A stretch of DNA of 15,039 nt from Alphaproteobacteria bacterium (GTDB lineage Bacteria > Pseudomonadota > Alphaproteobacteria > Micavibrionales > Micavibrionaceae): positions 1-15,039 of the forward strand of contig JAUICS010000005.1 of assembly GCA_030427765.1 (NCBI GenBank), read 5' to 3'. Positions 5,115 through 11,556 of the stretch are shown here, one piece after another (position 1 is the stretch's first letter; the number at the start of each line of letters is the position of its first letter). Below the pieces are notes generated by a model that was not told the origin of the DNA, made no database searches, and was given only the letters and a program-made list of their open reading frames with translations. Both the position numbers and the translations under genes were made by a program.

Positions 5115-6773
5115 ATGTCTGCTAAAGATGTACGTTTTTCAACTGAGGCACGTAACCGCATCCTTAAGGGTGTTGATACAATTGCCAACGCAGTGAAAGT
5201 CACATTGGGTCCAAAAGGACGTAATGTTGTTATTGAAAAATCATTCGGCGCACCACGCATTACAAAAGACGGTGTGACTGTTGCGAAAGAGATCGAGCTT
5301 GAAGACAAGCTTGAAAACACTGGCGCACAAATGATTAAAGAAGTTGCCACAAAGCAAAATGACGCTGCCGGTGACGGTACAACAACTGCAACAGTTCTTG
5401 CACAGCGCATTATCCGTGAAGGTGTTAAGGCCGTTGCGGCCGGTATGAACCCGATGGATCTTAAGCGCGGTATCGACAAAGCCGTTGAAGCCGTAGTTGA
5501 AGATCTTAAAAAACGCGCCAAGCCAATTAAAACGAGTAGTGAAATTGGTCAGATCGGAACGATTTCCGCAAACGGTGACAAAGAAATCGGCGACATGATT
5601 GCCGAAGCCATGGATAAAGTTGGCCGCGAAGGCGTTATCACAGTTGAAGAGGCAAAATCATTGGCAACAGAACTGGATGTTGTTGAAGGTATGCAATTCG
5701 ACCGTGGTTACCTTTCACCATACTTTGTTACAAACTCGGAAAAAATGATTGCTGAGCTTGAAAACCCATACATTCTTCTTCATGAGAAGAAATTGTCAAA
5801 CTTGCAAGCAATGCTTCCGGTTCTTGAAGCGGTTGCGCAGTCTGGCCGTCCATTCTTGATCATCGCAGAAGATGTTGAAGGCGAAGCATTGGCAACATTG
5901 GTTGTTAACAAGCTACGTGGTGGCTTGAAAGTGGCTGCCGTTAAGGCACCTGGTTTCGGTGACCGTCGTAAGGCAATGTTGGAAGATATGGCGATCCTAA
6001 CAGGTGGTCAGGTTATTTCCGAGGATGTTGGTATCAAACTTGAAAACGTAACAGTTGACATGCTTGGTACAGCGAAGAAAGTCACAATCAGCAAAGATGA
6101 AACAACAGTTGTTGACGGCGCTGGTAAGAAAAAAGAGATCGAAGCACGTTGTGCCCAGATCCGCGCTCAGGTTGAAGAAACATCTTCTGACTACGACCGT
6201 GAAAAACTGCAAGAGCGTCTGGCTAAACTGGCTGGCGGTGTTGCTGTTATCCGCGTTGGTGGTGCGTCCGAAGTTGAAGTGAAAGAGCGTAAAGACCGCG
6301 TTGACGATGCAATGCATGCGACACGCGCGGCGGTTGAAGAAGGCGTTGTTGCTGGTGGTGGCGCTGCGCTTCTATACTCTCGCGGCGTTCTGGACAAAGT
6401 CAAAGGTGATAACGAAGATCAGAATGTTGGTGTTCAGATCATCCGTAAGGCTCTTGACGCTCCTGTTCGTCAGATTGCTGAAAACGCAGGTACAGAAGGG
6501 TCAATCGTCGTTGGTAAAATGACAGACCAGAAAGATACTGACTTCGGTTTTGATGCTCAAAAAGGTGAGTACACGAACCTTGTGAAAGCCGGTATTATCG
6601 ATCCAGTGAAAATCGTACGTACTGCTATTCAGGATGCGGCATCTGTTGCAGGTCTTCTTATCACAACAGAGGCTGTTGTGACTGAACTTCCAGCAAAAGA
6701 TGATGCTGCAGGCGCCGGTGCCGGCATGGGCGGCATGGGCGGCATGGGCGGTATGGGCGACATGATGATGTAA
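5115..6773 (+). CDS. groEL: Chaperonin GroEL (Hsp60)
   Basis: 552 residues, full length. The start [20 protein letters not shown], the ATP-binding segment ([12 protein letters not shown], then [12 protein letters not shown] with the conserved Asp), the apical-domain substrate-binding stretch ([13 protein letters not shown]) and [10 protein letters not shown] are all as expected. The C-terminus carries the Gly-Gly-Met repeat that extends into the folding cavity. It forms the double-ring ATPase that folds proteins with GroES. Shine-Dalgarno AAAGAGG lies at 5099-5105. Codon use shifts toward GTT, GGT, ACA and CTT compared with flanking genes, as expected for a very highly expressed gene. Transcription ends at the terminator at 6802-6829. 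Confidence 0.99.
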
Positions 6774-7911: not shown

Positions 7912-8973
7912 CTAAGCAGCATTTTTATTTTGTGTTGCGATCACAGGCTTGTATGTTTTTAAATGCATGCTGTGAACCGGCGCAAATTTACGCTTGTAAC
8001 GGTCAAGCCCATCTGTTTCCGAACCACCCAGACACAGATAATCAATATTGTGTTTCACAAGCTCTTCACACGATTTGTAAATGAGCAATGTGCTGAGATT
8101 TGTAATGTTCTTTGTATTTAGTTGGGATGCAAAATGACATGCGATTTTTGAATTGTTGTATGGCTTATCCCAAATGGAAAACCCGACTGGCTTACCTTCC
8201 ATGTATAGAAGTATACCATCGATGTGACTATGTTTGTTTGCGCCTAATTTGCAAAGGCCCTTGAAGTATTTTGATGCTAAATCATAATTTTCAAAATACT
8301 CTGGGCTATCCTGCGTCCAGACATTGGCAATCGATAGGATGATGTTCTTATGTGCATCGAAATCAATACGGCGTGTTGTAACGTTTTGCTTGGCAAATTT
8401 ATTGACCGTCTGACGGATAACGCCAAAATCCTTACCCTCTTTTGCCAGGACCTTGTGACAATCAATAGTATGTGATGGGTATTTCCAGTCCAGAACATGT
8501 TCCGGTATTTTGCGATATTGTTGGTTTTGTGATGGTATGTCCTGAAAACGGGACATTTCAATACGTAGGCCGCTTTTATTCAATATGGCCAGAAGTTCCG
8601 AGTAATCCGGATTGTCTTGCTGCGTGTACGCTGGAAATACCAGAATTGTGTCTTTCTTATTTGGGTGGAGACAGAAAATCACAGCAATTTCATTCTTCGC
8701 GTAAACCCACATCCCACGGCGACCTGTAATAATCATATAGACTGGGGAGTTACAAAAATAATCATCAGAAAATTTCAATGACAGTACATATTTAAGTGCG
8801 GCCAGATGATCTTCTTCAAGAGGAAGTATGAAGCTGTGTTCAGCCAAAATGCCTTGTAGCCGGTTTTCTTTGCTTGTCATGTCCGGTTTTTGGAAACTGG
8901 ATCCGCCAGTGTGGCTTGCAGTTTTTGATGCACTGGTCTGTAGTGTATATGATGCGTTGCTCATCTGAAACAT
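7912..8973 (-). CDS. DUF2156 / GNAT-fold acyltransferase (phosphatidylglycerol lysyltransferase C-terminal type)
   Basis: 353 residues, soluble, with a Ser/Thr-rich N-terminal 35 residues of no visible domain. The C-terminal part IDGILLYMEGKPVGFSIWDK (251-270) and LCLGGSETDGLDRYKRKFAP (313-332) is characteristic of the DUF2156 family, the double-GNAT fold that in MprF transfers lysine from Lys-tRNA to phosphatidylglycerol; FemAB-like enzymes share the fold. YPSHTIDCHKVLAKEGKDF (165-183) also fits. The MprF membrane part is absent, so the substrate is unknown: an aminoacyl or acyl group to lipid, peptide or sugar is all that can be said. A strong Shine-Dalgarno GAGGAG inside the end of the upstream regulator gene lies 6 nt before this ATG, and the gap between the genes is 3 nt, so they are cotranscribed and probably translationally coupled. 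Confidence 0.75.
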   Translation of the reverse strand: MFQMSNASYTLQTSASKTASHTGGSSFQKPDMTSKENRLQGILAEHSFILPLEEDHLAALKYVLSLKFSDDYFCNSPVYMIITGRRGMWVYAKNEIAVIFCLHPNKKDTILVFPAYTQQDNPDYSELLAILNKSGLRIEMSRFQDIPSQNQQYRKIPEHVLDWKYPSHTIDCHKVLAKEGKDFGVIRQTVNKFAKQNVTTRRIDFDAHKNIILSIANVWTQDSPEYFENYDLASKYFKGLCKLGANKHSHIDGILLYMEGKPVGFSIWDKPYNNSKIACHFASQLNTKNITNLSTLLIYKSCEELVKHNIDYLCLGGSETDGLDRYKRKFAPVHSMHLKTYKPVIATQNKNAA

Positions 8974-8976
8974 TGC

Positions 8977-9612
8977 TTACTCCTCAACCTTTTGGGCATG
9001 ATCCCATACAAAATTGAATGTGATTTTCATTGTTTCTGCGAAAAACGGATTTTCGAACAACAGGACTTTTGGTTCACTGTTGCGCAGTAACAAGGCAATT
9101 TTATTGGCATATATATACACGGTGTAAGTTGAAAAATAGGCCTTTGGAACATATCTGTACCATGATTTTGGTGCAATAAAGTTAGTTGTACCTTCTTCAA
9201 TAAGGATACGTTCGCGCTTATTAATCTCTTGTAGGCGTTTAACCTGCTCTTGTGTCTTTTTGTAGTTGTATTCTTCCTCGGGCCCGATTTCGACAATGCC
9301 GAGAAGGCAGACTTCATCATCTTTATCTTCTTCTAGTGATGTGAAAATATCATTTTGTAACCGAGCCAGACTATCATCACCCTCTATTACTAAGAGACGG
9401 TCTTTTGATTTGCGAACACCACCTTCTATAAATTCGATACCGTTTGCCTCGAAAACAAGCTGGATTTTTTGCAGTGTTGTTATTGTCGGCGTCTGGGTTC
9501 CTATCTCAATACGGGCAATTCCTGTTTGAGACAAGCCAGCATGCTTAGCGAGCTCCCCCTGAGACCATCCAAGGAGTGCGCGTGCTGCTTTTATTTGCTC
9601 AATAGTTACCAT
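8977..9612 (-). CDS. XRE-family HTH regulator with TrmB-like C-terminal sensor domain
   Basis: 211 residues. Residues 1-64 are a Cro/C1-type helix-turn-helix: IKAARALLGWSQGELAKHAGLSQTG then IARIEIGTQTPTITTL and the usual ending ANGIEFIEGG. After a linker, about 72-206 looks like the PLD/TrmB-type effector domain: LLVIEGDDSLARLQNDIF at the start, a helical KTQEQVKRLQEINKRERILI, then YRYVPKAYFSTYTVYIYANKIALLL and LLFENPFFAETMKITFNFVW. The last two match, in order, the pattern of the C-terminal domain in archaeal TrmB-like regulators (IYGDKV, IEN, AETF, LFELLW). It probably senses a small ligand and represses its own operon. First gene of a two-gene operon; Shine-Dalgarno GGAAGTAGG precedes the ATG. 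The HTH is certain, the TrmB-like call moderate. Confidence 0.85.
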   Translation of the reverse strand: MVTIEQIKAARALLGWSQGELAKHAGLSQTGIARIEIGTQTPTITTLQKIQLVFEANGIEFIEGGVRKSKDRLLVIEGDDSLARLQNDIFTSLEEDKDDEVCLLGIVEIGPEEEYNYKKTQEQVKRLQEINKRERILIEEGTTNFIAPKSWYRYVPKAYFSTYTVYIYANKIALLLRNSEPKVLLFENPFFAETMKITFNFVWDHAQKVEE

Positions 9613-9645
9613 GCCTACTTCCAGTGTGTATATTTAACTGCTTTG

Positions 9646-9679
9646 TTATTATTTATGCACGATGCGTTATAAATGATAA
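9646..9679. promoter_or_regulatory. Inverted repeat, candidate operator of the XRE regulator
   Basis: TTATTATTTAT (9646-9656) and ATAAATGATAA (9669-9679) are inverted copies matching at 10 of 11 positions, with a 12-bp spacer. The minus-strand -10 box for the regulator gene falls inside it, an ideal place for autorepression. The DNA is AT-rich, so chance pairing is possible. Confidence 0.5.
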
Positions 9680-9694
9680 ATTTTTAGTTGACAA
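9666..9694 (-). promoter_or_regulatory. Promoter of the XRE regulator / acyltransferase operon
   Basis: On the minus strand TTGTCA (complement of 9689-9694), 17 bp, TATAAC (complement of 9666-9671): one mismatch to each sigma-70 consensus box with ideal spacing. The start point would be near 9659, giving a leader of about 47 nt before the ATG at 9612. Confidence 0.7.
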
Positions 9695-9716
9695 CCCCTA
9701 ATTTCAATGTTATTAA
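9688..9716 (+). promoter_or_regulatory. Divergent plus-strand promoter
   Basis: TTGACA (9688-9693), 17 bp, TATTAA (9711-9716). The -35 box is perfect and overlaps the -35 box of the minus-strand promoter, so the two should compete. The rpsT promoter in this window uses the same pair of hexamers (TTGACA, TATTAA), which supports the call. No ORF follows before the terminator at 9805. Confidence 0.6.
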
Positions 9717-9721
9717 AAATG

Positions 9722-9839
9722 CACCATACGGTATTTTTTATGCATTAGTGAATATCTGATTGGTTAAATAATACACACACACAAGTTAAGTTTCCCCACA
9801 CACGGACCACTCTAAGTTTCTTAGAGTGGTCTTTTTTTT
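9722..9839 (+). ncRNA. Candidate small RNA ending in a strong orphan terminator
   Basis: A good promoter (9688-9716) and a strong terminator (9805-9839) enclose about 118 nt without a convincing coding sequence; the only ATG-initiated frame I see is 9 codons and has no ribosome site. The 5' part can fold weakly (AAAAAT and ACC with GGT and ATTTTT around 9715-9738). The middle has an (AC)5 run at 9773-9782 and a C-rich unpaired patch (TTTCCCCACACAC), the kind of exposed segment a base-pairing regulator uses. Alternatively this is the leader of the membrane-protein gene at 9909 with an attenuator at its end. I recognise no known RNA family (not tRNA, 6S or SRP RNA). Confidence 0.5.
9805..9839 (+). 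terminator. Strong Rho-independent terminator with no upstream gene
   Basis: GACCACTCTAA (9805-9815) pairs perfectly with TTAGAGTGGTC (9821-9831), an 11-bp stem with a 5-nt loop, followed by eight T residues (9832-9839). The minus-strand reading has no T tract after the stem, so it terminates plus-strand transcripts only. The nearest plus-strand gene upstream ends at 7902, beyond two minus-strand genes. Confidence 0.9.
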
Positions 9840-9908: not shown

Positions 9909-10664
9909 ATGACAAACGATATTCCATCACAAGGCTCCGGACAGAGGCCGCCGGCGAAAGAAAACCGGATGCGTAAACCACCGATTAAGACGCCGGTTAA
10001 ACCACCTGTGTCAAAATCAAAAAAAACAGCAACACCCAAAGCCAGGCAATCAGCACAACATTTTGTCGGATACGGTATATTTGGTGTCGGTGTGTTGCTA
10101 TGCATGGTAATGGCGTATTTTGCCATACAGAGATTTTCTAATCCTCTGTCCGAAGGTCTGACAGATGTTGACGTTGCACGGCCGGCAATCAATGTTGAGG
10201 ATTTGGAGAGCGTAAAACGGCAAAAGGCGGCCGAGGAAACGCGCCGCAAAAGCAAAAACATTGTTCCGAATTCTCTGCGCCCGGTTGCAAATCTTGATGG
10301 ATATTGGACGGTGTCCCTGGATCCCCATTTTGCTGAGCTATATATAAAAGACGGGGTATACCAAATTATATACGGAAATGCATTGAACAGCATCCGTCAT
10401 TATAATGTTGGAAGAGTCGAAAAGATTGGCAATACATTAAAGCTTTCGCGTGACCAGTCATTGGGTGTACCAAAGGATGGAGGCAGTTTTTATAATTATA
10501 TACCGTTTGGGCAACGGTATTCTGCATCAAATATCTATATCTATAACGGCGAATATGTATGGGACGCAGGCCAGTATGAGCCGTTGGCGCAGGGTTTAGA
10601 GAAAAGTAAAATATTTACATTAATGAATTCCGACATAATACTTTGGTCACCTTATAAAAAGTAA
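9909..10664 (+). CDS. Single-pass membrane protein with periplasmic C-terminal domain, unknown function
   Basis: 251 residues, family not recognised. Residues 1-50 are Lys/Pro-rich and basic (KPPIKTPVKPPVSKSKKT), so cytoplasmic; one membrane helix follows at about 51-74 (YGIFGVGVLLCMVMAYFAI). Residues 95-118 are charged and probably helical. From about 128 there is a compact, Tyr-rich, likely beta-rich domain (NLDGYWTVSLDPHFAELYIKD, KIGNTLKLSRDQ, NIYIYNGEYVWDAGQYEPLAQ) whose start recalls small lipocalin- or META-like beta domains, but I cannot assign it. The orientation predicts that domain outside the cytoplasm. The ribosome site is weak (GTGAG); a later start at residue 21 is possible. It ends 13 nt before mutM, so it probably shares an mRNA with it. 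Confidence 0.65.
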   Translation: MTNDIPSQGSGQRPPAKENRMRKPPIKTPVKPPVSKSKKTATPKARQSAQHFVGYGIFGVGVLLCMVMAYFAIQRFSNPLSEGLTDVDVARPAINVEDLESVKRQKAAEETRRKSKNIVPNSLRPVANLDGYWTVSLDPHFAELYIKDGVYQIIYGNALNSIRHYNVGRVEKIGNTLKLSRDQSLGVPKDGGSFYNYIPFGQRYSASNIYIYNGEYVWDAGQYEPLAQGLEKSKIFTLMNSDIILWSPYKK

Positions 10665-10677
10665 TTGGTGATGTTTT

Positions 10678-11556
10678 ATGCCAGAGTTACCGGAAGTTGA
10701 AACCGTCCGTCGCGCGCTTGAGATGACAATTGATAACGCATCGTTTGAAGATGTCGCCATTGACCGTTTTGATTTGCGTTTTCCATTACGGACAGATTTT
10801 GCCGATATTATTACGGGGCGCCGTATACAAAATATTGATCGGCGCGGCAAATACATTCTTATCAATACAATTTCAAAGAACGGCGATGATGCCGCCATTC
10901 TCAGCATACATTTGGGGATGTCCGGAAATGTATTCGTGCGCGATGGGCAGATGCGCGGATATAACCGCCGTAAACATGATCACTTGTTATTTCAAATGTC
11001 GAATGACAGGACGATGATATTTAATGACCCAAGACGGTTTGGGTATATCGAATATTATCCGGGTATTGATGCAAATGAATTTGCATGCAGGAAAAAATTG
11101 GGGCCGGAGCCGTTAAACGATAATTTCGGTCCGGAGCGATTGCGTGCATCCCTTTCATCACGGAAAGGGCCGATAAAAAATGTCCTGCTGGATCAATCGG
11201 TAGTGGCGGGGCTGGGAAACATATATGTGTGTGAGGCATTATATGATGCCGGTATTCGTCCGGACAGGTCCGCGGCATCATTAACAAAGGATGAGTGTGG
11301 TAGACTCGTTCCTGCAATTCGTGATGTATTGGGCCGCGCGATTATGGCAGGGGGCAGCACATTAAAGGATTACACCCATATCGATGGCGGCACGGGGTAT
11401 TTCCAGCATTCGTTTTCTGTCTATGGACGTGATGGTTTGGTATGCCCCGATTGCGAATGTAAAACGTCGACCGGGCAGGAAAAAAAGGACAACTGCATAA
11501 TCCGTATTGTTCAATCCGGGCGCTCTACGTATTATTGTCCATACAAGCAAGTCTAG
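10678..11556 (+). CDS. mutM: Formamidopyrimidine-DNA glycosylase, with an altered zinc finger
   Basis: 292 residues; removes 8-oxoguanine and formamidopyrimidines and nicks the site by beta/delta elimination. The N-terminus MPELPEVETVRR supplies the catalytic Pro (after Met removal) and Glu. Lys58 in RRGKYILI is the conserved beta-hairpin lysine; LGMSG (79-83), NDPRRFG (116-122) and LLDQSVVAGLGNIYVCEALY (170-189) are the other family blocks. GRSTYYCP (281-288) is the zinc-finger hairpin with its DNA-contacting Arg. The finger is unusual: CPDCEC is followed by an insertion of about 11 residues, and the last CPxC reads CPYK, so the fourth Cys is missing. The usual length is about 270; the excess is this insertion and loops. 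Middle gene of a likely three-gene run leading to rpsT-dnaA. Confidence 0.95.
   Translation: MPELPEVETVRRALEMTIDNASFEDVAIDRFDLRFPLRTDFADIITGRRIQNIDRRGKYILINTISKNGDDAAILSIHLGMSGNVFVRDGQMRGYNRRKHDHLLFQMSNDRTMIFNDPRRFGYIEYYPGIDANEFACRKKLGPEPLNDNFGPERLRASLSSRKGPIKNVLLDQSVVAGLGNIYVCEALYDAGIRPDRSAASLTKDECGRLVPAIRDVLGRAIMAGGSTLKDYTHIDGGTGYFQHSFSVYGRDGLVCPDCECKTSTGQEKKDNCIIRIVQSGRSTYYCPYKQV

Follow-up and report, generated by a model that had tools for sequence, protein, structure and literature searches.

The window analysed here is a stretch of 15,039 nt and represents one entire contig (JAUICS010000005.1) of a Micavibrionaceae genome assembly (GCA_030427765.1; 1.99 Mb, 77% complete). Between positions 7912 and 9839 it carries a cassette consisting of a regulator gene, an enzyme gene and a predicted divergent small RNA, which was compared within a set of 95 genomes, 61 of the family of the window and 34 of other families. 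The DNA-binding head of the regulator was found to follow the chromosomal site and its sensor domain the class of the enzyme, and the parts are named socket and plug, respectively, in the list below. Gene calling was carried out with a longest-open-frame heuristic, and the gene names groEL, mutM, PilT, PilC, CheA and CheY were assigned by sequence recognition.

7912..8973, minus strand: soluble DUF2156/PF09924 acyl- or aminoacyl-transferase (plug, part 1; PF09924 with E 2.5e-8, structure model)
8977..9612, minus strand: regulator with an XRE head and a sensor of PLD/TrmB fold (HTH_3 match, structure model)
8980..9405, minus strand: sensor of PLD/TrmB fold, residues 70-211 of the regulator, without the PLD catalytic histidine (plug, part 2; sensor tree tracking the enzyme class, fold)
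9427..9612, minus strand: XRE head, residues 1-62 of the regulator (socket; head tree tracking the chromosomal site)
9666..9694, minus strand: predicted regulator promoter, TTGTCA-17-TATAAC
9688..9716, plus strand: predicted promoter of the divergent RNA, TTGACA-17-TATTAA
9722..9839, plus strand: predicted small RNA of about 114-118 nt (promoter, fold, recurrence of motif and terminator)
9791..9803, plus strand: predicted seed UUUCCCCACACAC, which stays unpaired in the fold (with a probability mostly around 0.9 or higher)
9804..9839, plus strand: intrinsic terminator

The initial annotation of this DNA had named both genes on the minus strand, the XRE head and the DUF2156 match, the two predicted divergent promoters and the terminator, all of which could be verified in the sequence.

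Regulator and partner enzymes

The HTH_3 domain of the regulator scores above the curated Pfam cutoff, and in the structure model (predicted local distance difference test, pLDDT, 93.7) the head resembles C.Kpn2I. For residues 70-211, structure comparison of the model revealed a PLD fold common to NucT, TrmBL2 and TrmB, which bears out the TrmB-like tail proposed initially. A TrmB winged-helix domain is not present, as the head is of the HTH_3 type and no TrmB family occurs among the Pfam matches of the regulator. Among 88 regulator homologues, K171 is a lysine in 62, and the residue two positions before it (169), which would complete the catalytic HxK motif of PLD, is a histidine in three. 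Since the catalytic histidine is absent in the other 85, the tail is more likely to sense than to catalyse, and the sensor domain would bind a ligand.

At E ≤ 0.001, members of the regulator family were found in 79 of the 95 genomes, with up to eight places per genome; a small number of the matches is weak (near E 1e-5). Among the best 80 of 219 matches in named relatives, full-length regulators come from Micavibrio, two so-called Rickettsiales and unclassified Alphaproteobacteria or Proteobacteria records; the matches in Rhizobiales and others align to the head only. In total, 152 full-length regulators in 143 stretches were analysed, taken from the matches listed (140 stretches retrieved around the listed regulator places), two named contigs and the window.

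The enzyme of the window matches PF09924 (LPG_synthase_C/DUF2156) with 33.8 bits at a gathering score of 27.5. Its model (pLDDT 86.8) resembles the Bacteroides structure 2hqy, the soluble domains of MprF, FemX and Sba18/Sbb17, of which FemX and Sba18/Sbb17 are aminoacyl-tRNA-dependent ligases. The enzyme family occurs in 13 of the 95 genomes. At all 13 full-length places with a visible neighbour, the DUF2156 enzyme is preceded by a regulator homologue on the same strand, so that the regulator-enzyme pair of the initial annotation is found together elsewhere as well; this count leaves out a fragment lying at the end of a contig in G073 and, in G011, a second, incomplete copy right behind the first.

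More generally, a next gene on the same strand follows 120 of the 152 regulators, compared with 523 of 932 other genes of the same stretches, at a median gap of 4 nt. The partner genes form clusters of 38, 24, 13, 9, 8, 4 and 4 members besides singletons. The cluster of 38 is EgtD-like (histidine-specific methyltransferase-like, with PF10017 in 36 of the 38), the cluster of 24 is cyclodipeptide synthase (CDPS)-like (PF16715 at E ≤ 0.001 in 18 and no match in six), and the cluster of 13 is of the DUF2156 type as in the window. The remaining clusters, identified via representatives, are GNAT, two class I methyltransferase clusters and a formyltransferase-like one. As the DUF2156 type is GNAT-like and three of the clusters are methyltransferases, the seven clusters amount to about four folds. 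In the CDPS-like cluster S65 (numbering of the first row) is invariant in all 24 members; this residue may correspond to the nucleophile of AlbC.

The initial annotation had considered an envelope or lipid function, in which the enzyme would aminoacylate a membrane lipid and the regulator would sense the state of the envelope. The PF09924 match and the fold shared with the MprF soluble domain suit this idea. However, the enzyme of 353 amino acids was modelled from residue 34 as a soluble fold with no N-terminal membrane flippase part, and the sensor has a soluble PLD/TrmB fold. Furthermore, the family members elsewhere are mostly paired with enzymes matching soluble methyltransferases and CDPS. 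The many other partners speak against an envelope-lipid function, which is regarded as very improbable.

Fixed heads and exchanged sensors and enzymes

Site labels are based on neighbour clusters up to 4.5 kb away. Two sites recur, one beside mutM with 23 regulators including that of the window, and one beside an M3-type peptidase gene with 31. In the window, the mutM site is delimited by the following genes:

5115..6773, plus strand: groEL, flanking the chromosomal site on one side (17 of the 23 mutM-site stretches carry a gene of this cluster)
10678..11556, plus strand: mutM (Fpg), the opposite flank (neighbour cluster 5, 23 regulators)

The enzyme class was compared with the regulator trees for 100 rows in seven classes, after exclusion of 52 of the 152 regulators, whose partners are of another kind or on the opposite strand. 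In the tree of whole regulators, eight changes of enzyme class were counted, where six is the minimum and 100 label shuffles all gave at least 51. The tree of sensors alone requires seven changes (minimum 6) compared with 54.9 in shuffles (60 shuffles, all at least 51). The tree of heads requires a single change of site among the 54 rows of the two named sites, compared with 17.6 in shuffles (60 shuffles, all at least 13). The mean identities agree with this. Heads at the same site share 0.71 of their residues with the same enzyme (197 pairs) and 0.65 with a different enzyme (374 pairs), and heads at different sites 0.46; for sensors the values are 0.50 and 0.42 within an enzyme class and 0.26-0.27 between classes.

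For the window itself, 11 of the 12 nearest heads are located at the mutM site, where the partners of these close relatives are convergent, GNAT, methyltransferase, CDPS or DUF2156 genes. The window sensor has its highest identities with the other two DUF2156 sensors at that site (0.51 and 0.50), followed at 0.36 by sensors with other partners; the rest of the DUF2156 sensors show no particular closeness to it.

Pairs of related genomes show the exchange directly. Between G051 and G021, an identity of 86.7% extends over 5.2 kb and reaches 203 nt into the regulator gene. Beyond this point sensor and enzyme are replaced, with an EgtD-like enzyme in one genome and a CDPS-like enzyme in the other, and the identity returns right behind the cassette at a CCCCACA-plus-terminator sequence. 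The genome with the EgtD-like cassette carries a second, convergent regulator as well. At the mutM site of G028 and G055, an identity of 88% stops 128 nt into the regulator gene and returns beyond the partner. Three pairs that are less closely related and differ in their partners have a matching block that stops 156-225 nt into the regulator gene; in further genome pairs no comparably clear edge was seen or the edge was not looked for. Judged from these sequences, sensor and enzyme are co-inherited and exchanged. A CCCCACA-plus-terminator sequence immediately behind the cassette, forming the edge of the exchanged segment, was located at L188:6382-6440 and L152:8338-8410 in two related genomes.

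A first alternative to the plug-and-socket cassette proposed below is a private metabolic feedback, in which each regulator would sense an intracellular metabolite of its enzyme only to steady its level and the RNA would couple this metabolite to other genes, with no signal between cells. The regulator and the enzymes appear to be soluble by model or family, a local regulator adjoining its enzyme is the common case, and the double dissociation of head and sensor suits a feedback of this kind too. That a single regulator family hosts several enzyme folds at one site, and that these are exchanged wholesale between related genomes, is nevertheless more like specificity types, and private feedback is considered rather unlikely.

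Chemical antagonism, in which the enzymes would make toxic or antimetabolite products such as cyclodipeptides, the exchange of cassettes would reflect an arms race and the regulator would time production, is a second alternative and would suit polymorphic single-enzyme cassettes as well as the fold that the window enzyme shares with the natural-product ligases Sba18/Sbb17. A weapon would not need a co-inherited sensor, however, and no recurrent self-protection gene or exporter was recognised among the listed neighbour clusters, in which no systematic search for these was made. Of four proteins submitted to PADLOC, only the helix-turn-helix part of the regulator was matched and none of the three enzymes; as the match is confined to this part, identity as a defence system was rejected. 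Antagonism is thus held to be quite improbable.

Two further observations concern the mutM site. In one genome (L310; G041:C78:25500-29500) mutM-like and groEL-like genes occur with no regulator recognised between them and with a CACCCACA-plus-terminator sequence, which is possibly an empty socket. In the window, a protein without Pfam match is encoded at 9909-10664 between cassette and mutM; at 10 regulator places in relatives a cluster-15 gene takes a comparable position and does not cluster with this protein by BLAST.

Divergent small RNA and candidate targets

The RNA predicted in the window (118 nt) ends in a terminator of 13 pairs and folds with a z-score of -3.9, better than all 200 shuffles; at the gathering score, Rfam yielded no match in the window. 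When words were counted without bias in the regions upstream of the regulators, CCCCACAC was found in 13 of 150 compared with 0.7 expected, mostly on the strand heading away from the regulator and a few bases before an intrinsic terminator. A motif-plus-terminator search revealed CCCCACA (mostly UCCCCACACAC) together with a variable terminator divergent to 40 of the 152 regulators. As CCCCACA was demanded by this search, its constancy is given by construction, and the unbiased support is the word count. At 28 of the 43 motif-plus-terminator sites the sequence reads CCCCACACAC, i.e., CCCCACA continues as CAC.

In 1.39 Mb, 43 motif-plus-terminator sites are located divergent to a regulator and eight elsewhere, and in the same sequence the counts for seven permuted or reversed motifs were 0-1 (divergent) and 1-5 (elsewhere). 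Irrespective of any motif, a strong divergent terminator was found at 48 of 149 regulators compared with 41 of 917 other genes. The terminator hairpin varies in sequence and length between loci while the seed recurs. Among the 40 RNA loci, 37 have a divergent promoter score of at least 9.5 (27% of shuffles), mostly of the TTGACA type, and in 30 the predicted length is 100-160 nt. A genome-wide pattern of CCCCACAC followed by a T tract recovers largely the same loci and few reversed controls. A covariance model (R1) was rejected as a counter of the RNA, since it matches 91 of the 95 genomes at E ≤ 0.1 and its weak matches resemble plain terminators; the RNA counts are therefore those of the motif-plus-terminator search only.

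The RNA was detected at 18 of 23 regulators of the mutM site, 10 of 31 of the peptidase site and 12 of 98 elsewhere. By partner, the 40 loci comprise 14 EgtD-like, seven CDPS-like, five GNAT, three DUF2156 and two methyltransferase cassettes and nine with other or opposite-strand neighbours. Conservation of the divergent terminated RNA with the gene pair thus holds at part of the loci, and the presence of the RNA depends more on the chromosomal site than on the type of enzyme. Of the DUF2156 pairs, the three at the mutM site have a detected RNA and the other 10 do not; since relatives keep the gene pair with no terminator detected, the initial proposal of regulator, enzyme and RNA as one unit is not supported. 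A regulator choosing between the enzyme operon and the RNA, as also proposed initially, would fit the anatomy of the locus.

Since the RNA is located on the same strand as the gene at 9909 and about 70 nt upstream of it in the window, it was asked whether it is a mere leader or attenuator of this gene. At several loci (e.g., L215, L244 and L246), however, the next gene beyond the RNA is on the other strand, and start sites in other parts of the genomes repeatedly carry the complement of the seed; this explanation was given next to no weight.

With respect to operators, some excess of motifs was found by site, e.g., GCAA-N2-AAAA in 17 of the 31 M3-peptidase-site regions compared with 0.8 expected. 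In the window, an imperfect direct repeat (10/12; ATGCACGATGCG at 9655-9666 and ATGCACCATACG at 9719-9730) flanks both promoters and is a candidate operator, which is not clearly conserved at the mutM site. The shared -35 region was rejected as a conserved feature, being present at four of the 40 RNA loci.

In the genome of the window, two genes begin with GTGTGTGGGGAAAAAA(A)ATG, a perfect 13-nt complement of the window RNA; among 46 other start regions the longest contiguous match is 9 nt. The pattern GTGTGGGGA-N2-10-ATG occurs 112 times in the 61 family genomes compared with 30 for the reversed pattern, where part of the 112 represents the complementary strand of an RNA, and 12 compared with 10 times in the 34 genomes of other families. 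Both the predicted RNA and the matching sites therefore recur at sequence level.

A recurrent target candidate is a hydrophobic protein of 30-53 residues with the motif NGGLYxGTI, which by its look would sit in the membrane. A profile was built from nine examples picked for having an RNA-complementary site, and it detects the protein in 24 family genomes, some of them close relatives of each other, and weakly in one other. Among the 15 homologues outside the profile set, nine have the exact GTGTGGGGA, five a near variant and one is unresolved. Other genes with a matching site are PilT-, PilC- and CheA-like in G015, CheY-like in G023 and G053, and a response regulator gene in G004. In G049 and G029 the site of the small protein has three G, and a three-C copy of the seed is located near a cassette besides four-C copies; a co-variation of seed and site is only suggestive here.

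Some loci deserve mention beside these candidates. In G056 (L007:1066-1073, C33) the DUF2156 partner enzyme carries a GTGTGGGGA ribosome-binding site, which may expose the plug of that genome to feedback from the RNA. The genome of the window has a second seed-bearing RNA (L303:567-627), divergent to an XRE gene truncated by the contig end. A sibling RNA with two C-rich CACACAC seeds is located near polA-like and rplT-like genes in two genomes (L307:1972-2057 and L311:1968-2041), with no XRE-PLD regulator recognised within the surrounding 4 kb stretches. Another RNA type at L305:2005-2067 and L308:1966-2031 carries CTCCTCCCTCCC upstream of ACCCCACACAC and a terminator.

Proposed working and relation to known systems

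Because the head follows the site, the sensor follows the enzyme and the exchange leaves the flanks in place, the locus is probably a plug-and-socket regulatory cassette, with a fixed head/operator/RNA socket and an exchangeable plug of sensor and enzyme. The chromosomally fixed socket would comprise the operator region with the divergent promoters, the XRE head reading it and, at many sites, the small RNA; the plug of PLD/TrmB-fold sensor domain and small-molecule enzyme would decide which molecule counts.

For the ligand, the direction of regulation, the action of the RNA and a signal between cells, we infer the following course. The enzyme would produce or consume a small amino-acid-derived molecule, which would be bound by the sensor domain; an enzyme making or removing the ligand is the simplest reading, because sensor and enzyme then must travel together. 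Upon sensing, the XRE head would alter how its own operon and the RNA are transcribed. Via UCCCCACACAC, the RNA may pair with the ribosome-binding sites GUGUGGGGA and block translation. Repression would thereby reach the small hydrophobic protein and also, in part of the genomes, motility or pilus/chemotaxis genes. As the plugs differ between related genomes at one site, the molecule may carry strain specificity in the manner of a pherotype, and the exchange at one site favours an action between cells rather than inside them. On this basis, it is conceivable that Micavibrio-like bacteria, some of which are predators, possess a new class of chemical signalling specific to strains, and this can be put forward tentatively. 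It would consist of a receptor family whose sensor swaps as a unit with its synthase, the synthases being of about four unrelated folds (seven clusters), with a readout via fixed sockets and sibling one-seed RNAs controlling a small membrane peptide and surface motility.

Several observations weigh against this proposal. Many of the genomes are akin, and the counts are not independent. Head and sensor are not wholly independent of each other's correlate, with 36 enzyme-class changes in the head tree (shuffles 55) and eight site changes in the sensor tree (shuffles 17.7). For 32 of the 152 regulators there is no same-strand partner. From 42 neighbours of regulators lacking a main partner, 20 proteins were hand-picked and scanned with Pfam, 19 of them opposite-strand neighbours of those 32; 12 of the 19 have a match, mostly unrelated-looking and including NUDIX, Redoxin, ribonucleotide reductase and FliP, and seven have none. 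The RNA was not detected by the motif-plus-terminator search at 112 of the 152 regulators, among them all eight with formyltransferase-like or second-cluster methyltransferase partners. G021 and G051, both single-contig genomes, carry plugs of the DUF2156, CDPS-like and EgtD-like types as well as the small protein with its exact site. At their regulators no divergent RNA was detected, and CCCCACA plus terminator is located behind one cassette instead. In G034 and G058 the target site is a variant, for which the one pattern tried gave no matching RNA; its match in G058 is the opposite strand of the site itself. Finally, the duplex energies of the two sites in the genome of the window are unremarkable among the 46 other start regions. 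Duplex energy does not discriminate and was rejected as target evidence; only the contiguous 13-nt match stands out.

The proposed plug-and-socket cassette resembles several known systems. In agr/RNAIII of Staphylococcus a sensing and synthesis operon is likewise divergent from a regulatory RNA, a C-rich stretch of this RNA pairs with ribosome-binding sites, and sensor and signal co-vary between strains. The cassette differs in its one-component XRE regulator, with no histidine kinase or peptide, and in its enzymes of several folds, and shares no homologous part; among the Pfam matches of the two cassette proteins (HTH_3 and LPG_synthase_C only) there is no Agr family. In the ComQXP and ComCDE pherotypes the sensor part and the signal-making part also swap as a unit between conserved flanks, whereas in the cassette an enzyme is swapped together with a ligand-domain fold, the latter being fused to a DNA-binding head that stays fixed. 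LuxI/LuxR shares the synthase adjoining a one-component receptor-regulator; in the cassette the enzyme class varies and a divergent RNA is present, and neither protein has a Pfam match to a LuxI synthase or an autoinducer-binding domain.

At the level of single parts, TrmB and TrmBL2 have a PLD-fold domain beside a DNA-binding head, with a winged helix in place of the XRE helix-turn-helix. MprF/LPG_synthase_C, FemX and Sba18/Sbb17 share the PF09924 match and the fold with the window enzyme, which has its own regulator and, unlike MprF, no membrane flippase part. The alphaproteobacterial anti-Shine-Dalgarno RNAs of the AbcR type also direct an unpaired C-rich seed at ribosome-binding sites; the window RNA has another seed, is tied to XRE-PLD regulator sites and lacks an Rfam match. 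In the open-licence literature of PubMed Central (PMC), no description of the system was found, nor a precedent for one receptor family with several enzyme folds and a fixed head and RNA. The architecture appears categorically new as a combination, every single component being of a known kind, and its function would be that outlined above.

If this holds true, the cassette represents a design in which the DNA-binding head and the RNA output stay while sensor and synthase swap across several folds. It would name cyclodipeptides, methylated and aminoacyl compounds as ligands to seek, give orphan CDPS-like and EgtD-like genes a role and offer a handle on the switch between swimming and attachment in Micavibrio-like predators. 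According to a study on ARL-13, chemotaxis and flagellar genes are on in the attack phase and off during attachment (PMC3189940). The study also describes pili as phase-specific and leaves open the role of its puzzling quorum-sensing genes (PMC3189940).

As a minor observation on the regulator family, one stretch (L154; G026:C14:14209-24290) contains three regulator copies together with a pyridoxal phosphate-dependent threonine-dehydratase-like gene and a glycine hydroxymethyltransferase-like gene, both named by sequence recognition.

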